The notes under the pieces were generated by a model. The model worked only from the letters and a program-made list of their open reading frames with translations, ran no database searches and was not told where the DNA came from. The position numbers were made by a program, and so were the translations under genes. From a virus, in IMG/VR virus record IMGVR_UViG_3300043823_000114, positions 1-64,000 of that record: a DNA stretch of 64,000 bases; one strand, written 5' to 3'. How positions within the stretch are numbered: position 1 is the stretch's first letter; every line of letters begins with the position of its first letter. Below, piece by piece: positions 56,049 through 62,109 of this stretch.

Positions 56049-56489
56049 ATGACATGGATATTTCAAGGAAACCCTGTAGAAGTTTTACCCGATGACTGCG
56101 TGGGCTTCGTATATCTCATCACCAATTGTATATCAGGGCGCAAATACATAGGCAAAAAACTCTCAAAATTTTCTAAAACAACATATAAAACAGTCAAACT
56201 CAAAAACGGCAATAAGAAACGCAAGAAAATTAAATCAAAGATAGATAGCGACTGGCTCACATATTATGGCTCAAATCTCGAACTCAGTAAAGATGTAATA
56301 GCATTGGGTGCTGAAAATTTTACAAGGGAAATACTATACCTTTGTAAAAGTAAAGCAGAATGTAGTTATATTGAGGCACGAGAACAATTCACAAACAAAG
56401 TTTTAGAAAGCTCAGACTGGTACAATGGACAGATATCAGTCAGAGTACATGGCTCCCACATTCTCAATAAAATTCAGTTAAACGGTTAA
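56049..56489 (+). CDS. GIY-YIG nuclease-like protein
   Basis: A 146-residue protein. The GIY-YIG core begins GFVYLITN (residues 19-26) and YIGKK (33-37), followed by a lysine-rich stretch and DWLTYYGSN, then an EAR-containing helix (YIEAREQF) with the likely catalytic Glu. Similar short proteins occur in many T4-like phages and are usually annotated as homing-type or uncharacterised nucleases. DNA-binding domain is not obvious apart from the basic region. I prefer the ATG at 56049 over the TTG at 56046. It stands directly upstream of a large structured RNA-like region, which may be linked to it. Confidence 0.8.
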   Translation: MTWIFQGNPVEVLPDDCVGFVYLITNCISGRKYIGKKLSKFSKTTYKTVKLKNGNKKRKKIKSKIDSDWLTYYGSNLELSKDVIALGAENFTREILYLCKSKAECSYIEAREQFTNKVLESSDWYNGQISVRVHGSHILNKIQLNG

Positions 56490-56490
56490 G

Positions 56491-56882
56491 GCTCACACAG
56501 GCCAATTTCTTGTGTATATGATAAGAGGACCCAGGGTCGCTCGGACATAAATCTCTGCCGTTAAGAGTGCTCAACCACTACCCATTTGGATGAAGACAGC
56601 TAATGCCGCTGTTTGGTTGCTTGAATAGGAATAATTATGGCTAAAAAGACGACACAGCGATGTGTCACGGTTATTATGTAAGTTAGCGTTTATATAATAA
56701 CTCGCCGTTGAAAAAGACGGGGATGGAGGTACCGGTCAACCGCCTCTGCTAAACACCCCAACGCTAAGTGATGTGCTACTCGGATGAAGGCAACTTCAAA
56801 CTTTTTGCCCGGGAAACCGGGCAAAGTGTGACGATTAATCTGGATGAATAGCCCATCGCTCCGCGAGAATACCGATGATAAA
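56491..56882 (+). ncRNA. Probable large structured RNA with GNRA-capped helices
   Basis: No convincing protein gene fills the gap between two convergent genes, but plus-strand helices are dense. Seen directly: GACCCAGGGTC (56528-56538); CAACCA/TGGTTG (56572-56577/56614-56619) enclosing ACAGC/GCTGT; GACACA-GCGA-TGTGTC (56651-56666); CCGT/ACGG (56705/56717); GGGG/CCCC (56719/56756) enclosing GAGG/CCTC and CGG/CCG; TTAGCGTT paired at long range with AACGCTAA (56683/56760); GAAG-GCAA-CTTC (56786-56797); a 9-bp stem with GAAA loop (56804-56825); CATCG/CGATG (56854/56873). Three stems end in GNRA loops only on the plus strand, which fixes orientation. GGATGAA occurs three times. The family is unknown; self-splicing intron, GOLLD/HEARO-like RNA, or a new class are options. 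Confidence 0.65.
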
Positions 56883-56927
56883 TGTTGTTGAGCGATAGCG
56901 AAAACAACAGATGTGCTTTGCACATCT
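56883..56927 (-). terminator. Hairpin pair at the end of the gp26 operon
   Basis: Two inverted repeats follow the stop of the 70-residue minus gene: AGATGTGC-TTT-GCACATCT (56909-56927, perfect 8-bp stem) and TGTTGTT/AACAACA (56883-56909). On the minus strand the first hairpin is followed by GTTGTTTTC, U-rich enough for a terminator. The first hairpin could also end plus-strand transcripts, so it may be bidirectional. Confidence 0.6.
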
Positions 56928-57139: not shown

Positions 57140-57150
57140 CCGCAAAAGCC

Positions 57151-57993
57151 TTATCCGAAAAAACTGCTCTGATCAAATGTGAGATTAGTTTTGAACTCTT
57201 TCTGGCATTCTTCATTTGCACAGGTCAATGTCAGTGGTGGAATTTTATAGAAATTCGTTAGTTCTTCCATAGAGTCTTTGACACTAGAGTATACAGCACG
57301 ACTACAGCTTTCTAGAAACTCTGCAATCATTTCTCTATCTTTTACTTCAATACCATCTTCGGTAGTAACGCTATAAATCCCATCAATAACTAGATTTAGA
57401 TTCAACTCACGGATCTTGTTAAAACTAAAATTGAAGTTTGCCAGTTTCTGCTCTTCGGTTAGTTCTTCATTTTTAATAATGTTTTGAATCAGCTTCTCTT
57501 GTTCAAAGTTAATCATATTGGCATTGTTCATATTCTTATACATTTGTGGTCTGAACTTAAAAGTTAGTCCGTCAAAGTTGTATGATTTAGAATAATCTGC
57601 TTTACCAACACTGTCTAGTACAGCATTTAAGTCTACGCTGTATTCGTCGGACTGATTGCAATGTGGGCAAGTACTATTGAAATCCATCGCTTTACCATAA
57701 CTTGCCAATCTCATTGCAATGAATATTGGGTCTAGGTCCACTGCTGGGATTTCCCATGGATCTTTGATTGCTGGACAGCAACTCTTAATCACATCTGCAA
57801 TAGCTTGCCCACTGAGTAATGCGTCTGGAGTTTTTAGTGATAGTTCATCTCGGACTGTCATTGGGTACACTGGAATAGTACCGTTTGCAGCCAGTTCTAA
57901 TCCGTTTTCGCTGTAAAAGCGCCCTTTACTGGGTAAGCTGAGATAAAGTGCAGGCTGTCTGAAATGTTTTGCCAATGGATTAGCGGTAACCAT
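57151..57993 (-). CDS. gp26: Baseplate hub subunit gp26-like (T4 baseplate family)
   Basis: A 280-residue protein. LYLSLPSKGRFY at the N-terminus, PVYPMTVRDELSLKTPDALLSG in pieces (MTVRDE, KTPDALLSG) and a zinc-finger-like pair, CPHC (Cys109, Cys112) and CANEEC (Cys258, Cys263), are typical of the T4 gp26/baseplate hub family. T4 gp26 is about 208 residues. The zinc ligands suggest a small metal-stabilised domain. It is first in the minus operon, with GGAG 8 bases upstream of the ATG and TATAAATA 32 bases upstream, opposite the tape-measure promoter. Confidence 0.8.
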   Translation of the reverse strand: MVTANPLAKHFRQPALYLSLPSKGRFYSENGLELAANGTIPVYPMTVRDELSLKTPDALLSGQAIADVIKSCCPAIKDPWEIPAVDLDPIFIAMRLASYGKAMDFNSTCPHCNQSDEYSVDLNAVLDSVGKADYSKSYNFDGLTFKFRPQMYKNMNNANMINFEQEKLIQNIIKNEELTEEQKLANFNFSFNKIRELNLNLVIDGIYSVTTEDGIEVKDREMIAEFLESCSRAVYSSVKDSMEELTNFYKIPPLTLTCANEECQKEFKTNLTFDQSSFFG

Positions 57994-58032: not shown

Positions 58033-58041
58033 GGGTAGAAT

Positions 58042-60357
58042 ATGGCCAGTCCAGTAAAAATTAACATCCCCGGTGTGGGTCTCATAGAAGCTACTAATGC
58101 TGCCTCGGAAGACACTCTACTCAAAATTCTTGAAGCTACTAAGAAAAGCGAATCTACTAAGAAAAAAGAAGAAAAAGAAGCCGAGAAACAGCGCAAGCAG
58201 ATTGATGAAACTACTGATAGTTTAAAAGGTTGGCAAAAAGGTCTAATAGGGAATTCTTCCAAAGCTAGCAAATTGATGGACGAGCATGTGGCCAGTGGCA
58301 ATGCCGCAAATGCCAGTGTCAATAAACTTGCCGCCGGAGCATCAATGGCCGCCGGTGCGATTGGTCAAGAACTATTGCAAATGATTGGTTCTTTGGCTCA
58401 GAGTGCCGCTAGTCTGACATCTGCATTCATGACCAGTTATGATCAAATGGCTGAAAACCCAATCAGCGCTGGGCTAACAGTGTTACAAACAGAAGTTGAT
58501 GCAACTGCCACAATGTACAAAACTGCCGCTACAGCATTGCTAACTGGTATAGGTGCAATTTTTGGTCCAATTGGTATGTTAGTGGGGGCTGGCATTGGGG
58601 AATTGGTCGGCACTCTGATTGGTGGTGCCGCAGAAATACAAAAGCAGTATAATCAGAAAATGGCTGACGAGATGCAGAAATCAGTCAAAGTGCAAGGCGA
58701 ATACACCAAGATGGGTGCAAGTTTTGCTGGTGGTATGATGGAGATGCGAAATGTAGCCAATGACGCTGGCATAAGCATGTCCTTACTCAGCAAAGCCGCA
58801 TCTAAGTCTGCCGCAGATTTAACTGCTACTGGCCTGTCACACGGTGAAGCCATTAAAGTCATGGCAGACGGTATGAAAGGTCTTGCTAAGACAACTGGTA
58901 AGAGTGGTGCATCACTACGAGATGAAATGTTATCATTGGGCTATAGTTACGAAGAACAGGGCGAAGTCATGGCTTCGTATATGGCTCAGCAACGCAGTGC
59001 GGGTATAAATTTAAAAAATCTTGCCCCAGAAGAACTTGCTCGTGGTGCCCGTGAATACGCCACAAACTTAAAAGTCATCAGTGACATCACCGGGGAAGAT
59101 GCTAAAAAGCTAATGGAAAAAGCCAAAGCTGAGTCGTTGCAGGCTGGAGTATTTTCCGAAGTTATGAGAAAAGGTGGTCCAGAAGCTGTTAAGAAACTAC
59201 AGAATCAACTAGCCACAATGCCAGAAGGTTTGAAGAAAGCATACATAGAGAAATTAAGTCTAGGCAAAGTAGTCGATGCCGCGTCAAACATCTACATGAA
59301 TGCTAATGAAAAAGCCGCAGATCAATTAACTAACATGAGTGATGACTTGTACAATGCTGGTGTTAGTGCCGCAGACGCAACAAGAAGGACTGGCGAGTAT
59401 AGTGAACAAACTGGTAAGTATGCATTAGAACATGCAGATAAAATGGCTGAAATTGGTAAAGCAAGTATTGCGGGTGTGGTTGGTCCAGCAAAAGATACTT
59501 CCGATCTTGCTAACAAGATAACCATGGATGCTATAAAGCGACAAGAAGGTGCGACAGACGCCAGTGTTGACGCCGCTAAAAAGCAAGCCGAACTTGCAGG
59601 TAAAGCTGAAAGTGTGGAAGCAGGATTTGCAAAAGTAACCAGTGCAACGCAAGACTTTGCCAAAAATATGGAGCAATTGACTGGTAAAGAGCTTGGTACA
59701 TACGCTAAGAATTTAGCAGATGGATTCAGCACTGCCAAAGATGCGATACAAGATTTTGCTAAAACAATAGATAGTGTGCATAGCAGTATTGCCAGTAAAG
59801 CACCAAATGCCAGAGAAATAGGTTCAGCAGTTAAATCTGGTGGTTCTTCTTTTCTAGACTTTTTAGGGAAAGTTGGGTCTGCCTACTCTGAGTCTCCTGG
59901 GCTTGCTGAAGGTGGTTGGGCTAACGGAGATCCAGCTGGATTTTTGCAAAAACTTCATGGGACAGAGCTAGTTATCCCCACTAGTGGGGGGATGCTAGAC
60001 ACTAGCAGTAAGGGATTCTCAGAGTTAATAAAAGCTATGACTGGTACTGATTTGCCCAGTGGTAATATATCAGATACTATTAGTAAAGGTTTTTCAGAGC
60101 TAGCTAAATCTGGGGATGATCTAGCTTCTTCTACTTTAAATAATGATCAATTACTGAAAAAAATAGACGATCTAATATCAGTTATTGGTGAAAAGTTTAA
60201 TAGTACAAGCACTAACAGTGCTGGTGATATTATTACTAATGCTTTCAATGGTATGACTGATATCCTAACTAAACAATTGGGGTTCCACGAAGAAATTGCA
60301 GATCATGCCAAAGACAACAAAGATTTACTAGACAAACTTCTTAAAGTGTCCATGTAA
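58042..60357 (+). CDS. Tail tape measure protein (gp29-like)
   Basis: A 771-residue protein. A basic coiled-coil segment (KKEEKEAEKQRKQ) is followed by hydrophobic Gly/Ala stretches (AAGAIGQELLQMIGSLAQ and the 540-bp region with TGIGAIFGPIGMLVGAGIG), then long helical repeats. Near the C-terminus LAEGGWANGDPAGFLQ and GTELVIPTSGGMLDT match the ends of many tape measure proteins. The protein sets tail length inside the tube and is ejected at infection. It is bounded by late boxes. It follows the gp26 operon divergently and precedes gp20. Confidence 0.8.
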   Translation: MASPVKINIPGVGLIEATNAASEDTLLKILEATKKSESTKKKEEKEAEKQRKQIDETTDSLKGWQKGLIGNSSKASKLMDEHVASGNAANASVNKLAAGASMAAGAIGQELLQMIGSLAQSAASLTSAFMTSYDQMAENPISAGLTVLQTEVDATATMYKTAATALLTGIGAIFGPIGMLVGAGIGELVGTLIGGAAEIQKQYNQKMADEMQKSVKVQGEYTKMGASFAGGMMEMRNVANDAGISMSLLSKAASKSAADLTATGLSHGEAIKVMADGMKGLAKTTGKSGASLRDEMLSLGYSYEEQGEVMASYMAQQRSAGINLKNLAPEELARGAREYATNLKVISDITGEDAKKLMEKAKAESLQAGVFSEVMRKGGPEAVKKLQNQLATMPEGLKKAYIEKLSLGKVVDAASNIYMNANEKAADQLTNMSDDLYNAGVSAADATRRTGEYSEQTGKYALEHADKMAEIGKASIAGVVGPAKDTSDLANKITMDAIKRQEGATDASVDAAKKQAELAGKAESVEAGFAKVTSATQDFAKNMEQLTGKELGTYAKNLADGFSTAKDAIQDFAKTIDSVHSSIASKAPNAREIGSAVKSGGSSFLDFLGKVGSAYSESPGLAEGGWANGDPAGFLQKLHGTELVIPTSGGMLDTSSKGFSELIKAMTGTDLPSGNISDTISKGFSELAKSGDDLASSTLNNDQLLKKIDDLISVIGEKFNSTSTNSAGDIITNAFNGMTDILTKQLGFHEEIADHAKDNKDLLDKLLKVSM

Positions 60358-60374: not shown

Positions 60375-60390
60375 CATTACAGGAACAAAT

Positions 60391-62109
60391 ATGGCTGGGT
60401 GGAAAAAATATTTTAAGACCGGAAACTTTCAGGGTTCAGTGAGTCCAATTGGTAGCGCTACCGGCTCGCAATCAGTAAATCCCGCATACCGTGCTACAGC
60501 AAGCACATTACCAGAAGTCTATATCGGTCATCCAAATCGTATTGAGCGTTATAATCAATACGAGCAAATGGACATGGACAGTGAAGTTAATGCCGCTCTA
60601 GATATTCTTGCTGAGTTCAGCACACAAAAGAACACAGAGAATCTAAGCCCATTTGATTTACATTTTCACGAAAAACCAACAGATAACGAAGTTAAAATCA
60701 TTAAAGAGCAACTGCAACAATGGGTGCAGATGAATGAATTAAACAAACGTATCTTCAAGATTTTTCGAAACACTATCAAGTATGGTGATCAAGTTTTCAT
60801 CCGTGATCCAGAAACATTCAAATTATTCTGGGTTGAGATGTCCAAAGTTGTTAAAGTTATTGTTAACGAAAGTGATGGTAAAAAGCCAGAACAATACGTT
60901 GTCAAAGACATTAACCCAAACTTTCAAAATCTTACAGTCACAGCAGTAAGTACAAGCGATACATTCACTAATCACCCCCAAGTTGGTGGCGCAAGCGGTG
61001 CTTATGTTCAGCCACGAAGCCCATATAGTGGTGGAAGTCGTTTCAGTCATGCACAAAACGAAGCAGTTGTTAATGCTGAACACGTTGTTCATTTGAGTTT
61101 AACTGAGGGTCTAGATATATTCTGGCCTTTTGGTAATAGTGTATTAGAGAATGTTTTCAAAGTATTCAAACAAAAAGAACTACTTGAAGACAGTATCATT
61201 ATCTACCGTGTTCAGCGTGCCCCAGAGCGTAGAATGTTCAAAATCGATGTGGGTAACATGCCAACACACATGGCTATGGCCTTTATTGAGCGTGTTAAAA
61301 ATGAGATTAATCAACGAAGAATTCCAACACAAAGTGCCAGTGGTCAGAATATGATGGATGCCACATACAATCCATTGCAGACTAACGAAGACTTTTTCTT
61401 CCCACAAACTGCTGATGGTCGTGGTAGTAGCGTTGAAATTCTTCCTGGTGGACAGAATTTGGGTGAAATCACTGACTTGAAGTTCTTTACTAATAAGCTA
61501 TTCCGTGGTCTACGAATTCCAGCAAGTTATTTGCCAACAGGTATTGATGACGGTACTCAAGCAATCAGTGATGGCAAAGTGGGCACTGCCCTGATTCAAG
61601 AATGGCGTTTCAATCAATATTGTAAGCGTCTACAAGGTATGGTTATCGATAAACTCGATCAAGAGTTCAAGATGTTCATGCGTTGGAGAGGTATTAATAT
61701 TGATGGGCAAATCTTTGATTTAACTTTCAATGAACCACAAAACTTTGCTCAATACCGTCAAGCAGATATTGATAGCGCAAAGATTGCTACATTCACACAG
61801 CTAGAAGCATTTCCTTACTTTAGTAAGCGTTTCTTAATGAAGCGTTATCTGGGTCTGAGCGAGATGGAGATGGCAGAAAACGAAATTCAATGGGCAGAAG
61901 AAAAAGGCAAAGGCGAAAGTTCTGAAGCTGGTCAAGCCAATCTGCGTAATGTTGGTATCACTCCTGGTGGTCTTGCCAGCGATCTTGAGAATGTCACTCC
62001 TCCTGCTGGTCCAGCAGGTGGTGGCGGTGCACTTGATGGTATGGGTGGTGCAGAAGCTGGAGCCCCAGCAGCCGGTGCTGCCCCAGCAAGTCCTCCAGGT
62101 GTAATGTAA
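60391..62109 (+). CDS. gp20: Portal vertex protein gp20
   Basis: A 572-residue portal protein. The N-terminal EVYIGHPNRIERYNQYEQMDMDSEVNAALD, cited as RIERYNQYEQMDMDSE, and ILAEFSTQKN blocks are diagnostic of T4-like gp20, as are VQRAPERRMFKIDVGNMP, DEDFFFP-like NEDFFFPQTADGRGSSVE and LPGGQNLGEI. Twelve copies form the head-tail connector through which DNA is packaged. Length is near T4 gp20 (524) with a Gly/Ala/Pro-rich C-terminal tail. It heads the capsid cluster: gp20, small core protein, scaffold, gp21. Confidence 0.95.
   Translation: MAGWKKYFKTGNFQGSVSPIGSATGSQSVNPAYRATASTLPEVYIGHPNRIERYNQYEQMDMDSEVNAALDILAEFSTQKNTENLSPFDLHFHEKPTDNEVKIIKEQLQQWVQMNELNKRIFKIFRNTIKYGDQVFIRDPETFKLFWVEMSKVVKVIVNESDGKKPEQYVVKDINPNFQNLTVTAVSTSDTFTNHPQVGGASGAYVQPRSPYSGGSRFSHAQNEAVVNAEHVVHLSLTEGLDIFWPFGNSVLENVFKVFKQKELLEDSIIIYRVQRAPERRMFKIDVGNMPTHMAMAFIERVKNEINQRRIPTQSASGQNMMDATYNPLQTNEDFFFPQTADGRGSSVEILPGGQNLGEITDLKFFTNKLFRGLRIPASYLPTGIDDGTQAISDGKVGTALIQEWRFNQYCKRLQGMVIDKLDQEFKMFMRWRGINIDGQIFDLTFNEPQNFAQYRQADIDSAKIATFTQLEAFPYFSKRFLMKRYLGLSEMEMAENEIQWAEEKGKGESSEAGQANLRNVGITPGGLASDLENVTPPAGPAGGGGALDGMGGAEAGAPAAGAAPASPPGVM

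Follow-up and report, generated by a model that had tools for sequence, protein, structure and literature searches.

The window analysed here, a 64,000-nucleotide stretch that belongs to a virus record of 90,208 bases, carries a real, large and modular noncoding RNA of ca 440 nucleotides, which had been catalogued only in part. We regard it as virtually certain that the plus strand encodes a functional RNA along the full length of 56488–56927. The orphan Rfam family RF01718 (Polynucleobacter-1) is only a fragment, the 5′ third, of this much larger RNA, which is common in freshwater T4-like phages and is carried by chromosomal islands too. Within it, paired heptamers change in concert without Watson–Crick pairing. 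This is an unusual evolutionary signature, which points to a specific partner and is directly testable.

The locus and the evidence for an RNA

A late sigma gene and genes similar to gp47 and gp46 mark the phage as T4-like. As the first-pass annotation had it, the gap at 56490–56926 is flanked by convergent genes. Directly 5′ of it lies a SegE-like GIY-YIG gene (PF19835; 56046–56489, plus strand; stop at 56489), and on the far side there is a 72-aa minus-strand ORF with its end at 56927; a T4 baseplate gene (PF12322) comes next. The structured region had been placed at 56491–56909; the region is correct, but the RNA reaches to ca 56927.

The earlier view that the gap holds no convincing protein gene agrees with the relatives, since in a loose count 38 out of 49 are without a plus-strand frame of 60 aa. 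In the same loose count, minus-strand frames of this length are found in 35 of the 49. The plus-strand fold is better than 100 of 100 shuffles (z −3.8). The minus-strand fold also beats its shuffles (z −3.2), and the folding energy by itself can therefore not choose the strand.

A structure consensus was built, and covariation calculated, from 49 non-redundant type I phage sequences. The covariation test is a home-made implementation of the R-scape idea, using a G-test with average-product correction, and the null consists of alignments in which the inferred substitutions of each tree branch are redistributed over sites. With sequence-based alignments, in which the gathering patterns fix some columns, and with this approximate null, 24 column pairs were found to covary at E ≤ 0.05, and 19 of these are predicted base pairs. 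The latter fall in the RF01718 domain, the central domain and element C. For type II the corresponding numbers are 13 covarying pairs and 10 predicted ones. The compensatory changes that had been proposed as a check on the homologous gaps are thus present, and the consensus contains ca 20 helix segments, where at least ten helices had been claimed.

Architecture of the RNA

The RNA starts with a 5′ domain, continues into a pseudoknotted central domain and a 3′ module in which twin heptamers flank a hairpin, and closes with a terminal double hairpin (element C). Its parts are as follows.

56488–56927, plus strand: complete structured RNA, ca 440 nt with inferred ends; homology and covariation in 49 type I relatives
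56490–56622, plus strand: 5′ domain, RF01718 Polynucleobacter-1; cmscan 86 bits, gathering threshold 37, model positions 1–141
56651–56666, plus strand: central hairpin with GNRA loop GCGA; 6 pairs, 92% paired
56669–56702, plus strand: 14-pair hairpin; 96% paired, 12 pairs doubly changed
56683–56689, plus strand: pseudoknot strand 1, TTAGCGT, pairing with 56761–56767
56719–56759, plus strand: stem around the conserved core GGTACCGGTCAACCGCCTCTG (56728–56748); 3 significant covarying pairs
56761–56767, plus strand: pseudoknot strand 2, ACGCTAA; 91% paired, 7 of 7 pairs doubly changed
56782–56788, plus strand: twin heptamer copy 1, GGATGAA after ACTC; matches copy 2 exactly in 134 of the 136 distinct phage RNAs
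56803–56826, plus strand: hairpin between the twin heptamers; 8 pairs, 95% paired
56842–56848, plus strand: twin heptamer copy 2, GGATGAA after ATCT; identical to copy 1 in 134 of 136
56885–56907, plus strand: element C hairpin 1; stem, UGAGC-loop-GCGAAA tandem G·A motif, stem
56909–56927, plus strand: element C hairpin 2; double changes in 8 of 8 pairs

The long-range pairing TTAGCGTT/AACGCTAA pointed out in the first-pass annotation does exist and is the conserved pseudoknot, the 5′ strand of which is the loop side of the 14-pair hairpin. A weak P7-like pairing had also been suggested; it finds no support because its 5′ side falls inside this pseudoknot. Three GNRA loops had been listed, and one of them holds, namely GCGA at 56657–56660, which is conserved as G-C/U-GA. 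No hairpin is conserved around GCAA, which also overlaps one of the twin sites, and the GAAA loop is not kept as GNRA in the relatives. In the central hairpin, double changes are seen in five pairs, and three pairs are significant.

Hairpin 1 of element C occurs once in the window and at the equivalent place in the relatives, with double changes in all five outer pairs. Hairpin 2, when read on the minus strand, is terminator-like for the convergent gene.

The idea of a large, ornate, functional RNA with a conserved long-range pairing and a repeated GGATGAA motif is thus borne out: ca 440 nt, extensive structure, a pseudoknot, carriage by phages and one copy in most phage records.

Relation to known RNA families

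The RNA had been called unassigned, which is wrong for its first third, since a cmscan of the window gives a single match above threshold, RF01718 at 56490–56622. The first 133 nt cover the whole 141-position model at 86 bits, well above the gathering threshold of 37, and the region belongs to the family by this measure. Helices of this domain covary at 56526–56541, 56555–56563, 56575–56616, 56576–56615 and 56598–56610. The RNA does not end where the model ends, as homology and covariation go on to ca 56927.

RF01718 was reported by Weinberg 2010 (PMC2864571) with the range Burkholderiales, fresh water or estuary, which is shared by the RNA described here. The Rfam model, however, covers only about one third of what is here an RNA of ca 440 nt found in T4-like phages. 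The RNA here also has the 3′ module, which occurs behind other 5′ domains as well, the twin heptamer and the terminal double hairpin.

In the Rfam scan of the window, GOLLD, ROOL, HEARO and the group I and II introns gave no match at gathering, and they are also absent among the matches of the region up to an E value of 5. The RNA resembles GOLLD and ROOL by size, structure and carriage, but it is a member of neither. Like these (PMC12286853), it is large, noncoding and pseudoknotted and is carried by phages as well as by bacterial chromosomes, and it shares with GOLLD a conserved 3′ part and a less conserved 5′ part. It is different in being shorter and without a match to their Rfam families, and an ARAGORN tRNA search of the window found none.

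Relatives in phages

About 230 viral loci were gathered from relatives of the GIY-YIG protein and by two pattern scans, one of them with the conserved core GGTACCGGTCAACCGCCTCTG as its search pattern. BLASTN shows conservation across the entire gap. More than 130 distinct phage relatives were obtained, nearly all located between SegE-like GIY-YIG and baseplate genes. RF01718 lies just downstream in 14 of 20 GIY-YIG loci. In the other loci examined the 5′ domain is a different one of comparable size, and what comes after it is again a core, a 3′ module and an element C of the same sort. A covariance model of the 3′ module, made from type I only, recovers 30 of 32 other loci, and for 26 the E value is below 1e−5. 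The type II loci, which are without an RF01718 match, give E values of 1e−10 to 1e−16, and the weakest matches (2e−4 to 0.035) are those of type III. A third 5′ architecture (CTAACACYTAAGGTTGGC...) of ca 300 nt was observed before a twin ACATGAA module in L041, L083, L092 and L116; L041 was scanned against Rfam and gave no match for it.

Among 16 virus records, one copy was found in 14, two in one and none in one. Two RNAs appear to be present, at ca 165.7 kb and 276 kb, in G584, the 302-kb record of locus L144.

DNA matches to the RNA were found neither in cultured phage nor in plasmid collections, and the type II and III relatives likewise have none among cultured phages. The nearest GIY-YIG relatives from cultured phages are below 50% identity, and in the annotated ones examined no RNA-sized gap was seen.

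The neighborhood of the RNA is variable. In about a dozen phage loci GIY-YIG and the RNA are separated by other genes, and in many more the RNA and the baseplate genes are. Many phages, such as L103, L095, L042 and L061, have one to three additional genes either in the interval from the RNA to the 72-aa ORF or in that from GIY-YIG to the RNA. In L144 and L222 the RNA is present and a GIY-YIG homologue is undetected. A cis role for the nuclease gene is disfavored by these insertions on either side and by the two loci without GIY-YIG.

The same loci bear on the option of a catalytic intron or an RNA partner of the GIY-YIG nuclease, which was part of the first-pass annotation and to which the size, the GNRA loop and the adjoining nuclease would fit. 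A catalytic intron can be dismissed because no intron family reaches threshold and no gene is interrupted. A functional tie to the nuclease finds no support: there are intervening genes in the dozen or so phages, the GIY-YIG is undetected in some loci, and none is adjacent to the chromosomal copies. We consider this option highly improbable.

Twin heptamers

GGATGAA is found at 56588, 56782 and 56842, and it had been taken as one motif recurring three times. The copies at 56782 and 56842 constitute a conserved twin, while the one at 56588 does not track it. Among 136 distinct phage RNAs collected with a search expression that covers part of sequence space only, the two copies are identical in 134, compared to ca 21 expected from the variant frequencies if they were independent. 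In nine divergent phage RNAs that fail the expression, the two copies share a core of six or more identical letters in every case, some of these having been read by eye.

The twin is at the same time highly variable, with eight main versions among the 136. Using trees built without the heptamer columns, we count at least 16 version switches in type I and at least 15 in type II, that is, at least 31 in total. Two column pairs joining the copies (301–357 and 307–363) covary significantly. In the chromosomal RNAs the heptamer pairs are identical in 20 of 23, with other letters: AGCGAAA, AACAAAA, AGAGAAA, ATCAAAA, GGAGAAA, GGCGAAA and AGCGATG.

RNAalifold draws a pairing between copy 1 and copy 2. 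However, the combination that would pair best, A in copy 1 and G in copy 2, is not seen among the 136, and mutual pairing therefore does not explain the identity. No third column covaries with the heptamers across the RNA. No complementary partner was found in cis either, the reverse complement being present within the RNA in 3 of 136. The two sites must match and yet can be almost anything, from which we infer that both contact the same outside partner. On balance, we think it somewhat more likely than not that the twin sites bind one shared partner. The DUF6641 protein of the chromosomal islands (see below) was considered as a candidate and rejected, as it was not found in 12 virus records.

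Another option is that the RNA acts like a small regulatory RNA, with the identical heptamers as seeds that pair with a target RNA differing between phages or hosts. The seeds are purine-rich and vary freely between RNAs, with ca 20 versions, which is what such a regulator could look like. However, heptamer reverse complements are not enriched within the flanks fetched around the phage RNAs or within those of the islands. We regard this scenario as rather unlikely.

The repeats could also be imagined to serve for realignment on a template from which a reverse transcriptase makes tandem-repeat DNA. According to one report (PMC12632851), a defence reverse transcriptase makes tandem-repeat DNA from short repeats in a noncoding RNA template. 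PF00078 is, however, found neither in the phage record nor in 12 island genomes, and the probability of this option is in our view close to nil.

Chromosomal islands

At threshold, 3 of 399 genomes of one order contain RF01718. Within one genus, which is probably Polynucleobacter, the count is 19 of 186, and several of these genomes are single-contig chromosomes. The chromosomal copies extend over the full length, and in a strict test element C is at the expected place in 18 of 24 of them, with 5 occurrences elsewhere in 0.9 Mb.

Most of these copies are part of a conserved mobile island, present in ca 20 genomes of one freshwater genus (L275–L278 and L297–L316). The island starts with a DUF6641 gene pointing away, followed by the RNA and usually a variable cargo gene. 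Then come a short tyrosine recombinase, unknown genes and an ATPase resembling a clamp loader; most islands also have a larger integrase. Some genomes were observed to have two islands.

The phage and chromosomal groups appear to be kin because they have in common the RF01718 domain, the arrangement of the parts, the twin sites and element C. The chromosomal 3′ modules are undetected by the type I 3′-module model, which suggests that the two groups are old relatives rather than recent copies. A scan of bacterial genomes with the phage core pattern gave 30 chance matches, none with a 3′ module.

The recombinase next to the RNA raises the question of whether the heptamers could be crossover sites at the DNA level. 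A tyrosine recombinase crossover needs an identical overlap of 6–8 bp, and identity combined with free variation is typical of it. However, a tblastn search of the phage loci with the island recombinase found no homologue, and the twin rule still holds there. Moreover, no consistent inverted arms could be seen by eye flanking copy 2, and the surrounding pairs covary as RNA. This makes crossover sites very unlikely.

Promoter elements

T4-type late promoters consist of a TATAAATA-like element at a fixed upstream place, without a −35 box, and they sit just upstream of ORFs, as ATAAATA does here. Namely, of 12 occurrences of this motif in the phage of the window, 10 precede an ORF of 100 aa or more on the same strand by no more than 120 nt, and the motif lies mostly 25–37 nt ahead of structural genes. 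Examples are those upstream of 57150–57993 (minus strand), 58041–60357 (plus) and 60390–62109 (plus). Directly upstream of the phage RNA copies a late promoter is lacking, with 4 matches in 103 versus 5 expected. The phage RNA is therefore probably produced from the gp47–gp46–SegE transcript.

In the islands, TAAATA is located 25–65 nt upstream of the RF01718 domain in 24 of 24 cases, where 0.06 would be expected per interval. Among these elements CTAAATA is more frequent than TATAAATA. Another gene family of the islands has TAAATA 26 nt before the start in 6 of 6. Together with the ATAAATA elements ahead of the phage ORFs, this motif would make the island RNA look ready for late T4-like transcription.

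Possible role

It is important to consider whether the RNA could be a cis-acting 3′ untranslated element, which stabilizes, terminates or processes the gp46–SegE transcript and terminates the convergent baseplate transcript. The RNA begins immediately past a same-strand stop codon, the phage copies have no upstream promoter, and hairpin 2 of element C resembles a terminator on the minus strand, all of which would be consistent with this. On the other hand, the RNA is retained despite gene insertions upstream and downstream and where GIY-YIG is undetected, its structure far exceeds the needs of a terminator, and the island RNA follows a divergent promoter region and unrelated genes. We consider a cis element to be distinctly unlikely.

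We find it likely, instead, that the RNA acts in trans. It would do so during infection, and not as the 3′ end of one particular mRNA. Our preferred reading, in which we have somewhat less confidence, is an infection RNA that acts in trans and gives one partner two identical sites to dock at. These sites would be offered by the 3′ module, and the partner could be a dimeric or repeated protein, or an RNA. If the preference of the partner differs between phages, both sites would have to change together.

The island RNA, in turn, would be switched on from the TAAATA element when a T4-like phage infects the cell and its late transcription machinery is at work; with a motif match to go on, we judge the chances of this to be about even. 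Through the island copies, a satellite-like element would then be able to use the same partner or to divert it. The complete picture, that is, a modular RNA shared by phage and satellite, with a two-copy address code for a contested partner and a satellite copy turned on by phage late transcription, is put forward tentatively, as a possible but doubtful scenario. We know of no helper phage for the islands. As TAAATA is present ahead of every island copy, the link between phage and satellite is testable in Polynucleobacter cultures.

The nearest functional parallel may be found in ICP1 and the PLE satellites, where noncoding transcripts are the most abundant (PMC7567579). There, a phage and its chromosomal parasite each express a prominent noncoding RNA in infection, and the likeness here is that the phage-type and island RNAs are related to each other.

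Finally, a minor observation is that PHROG 447 and many phage records give the SegE-like GIY-YIG protein the name NAD synthetase. This looks like a propagated misannotation.
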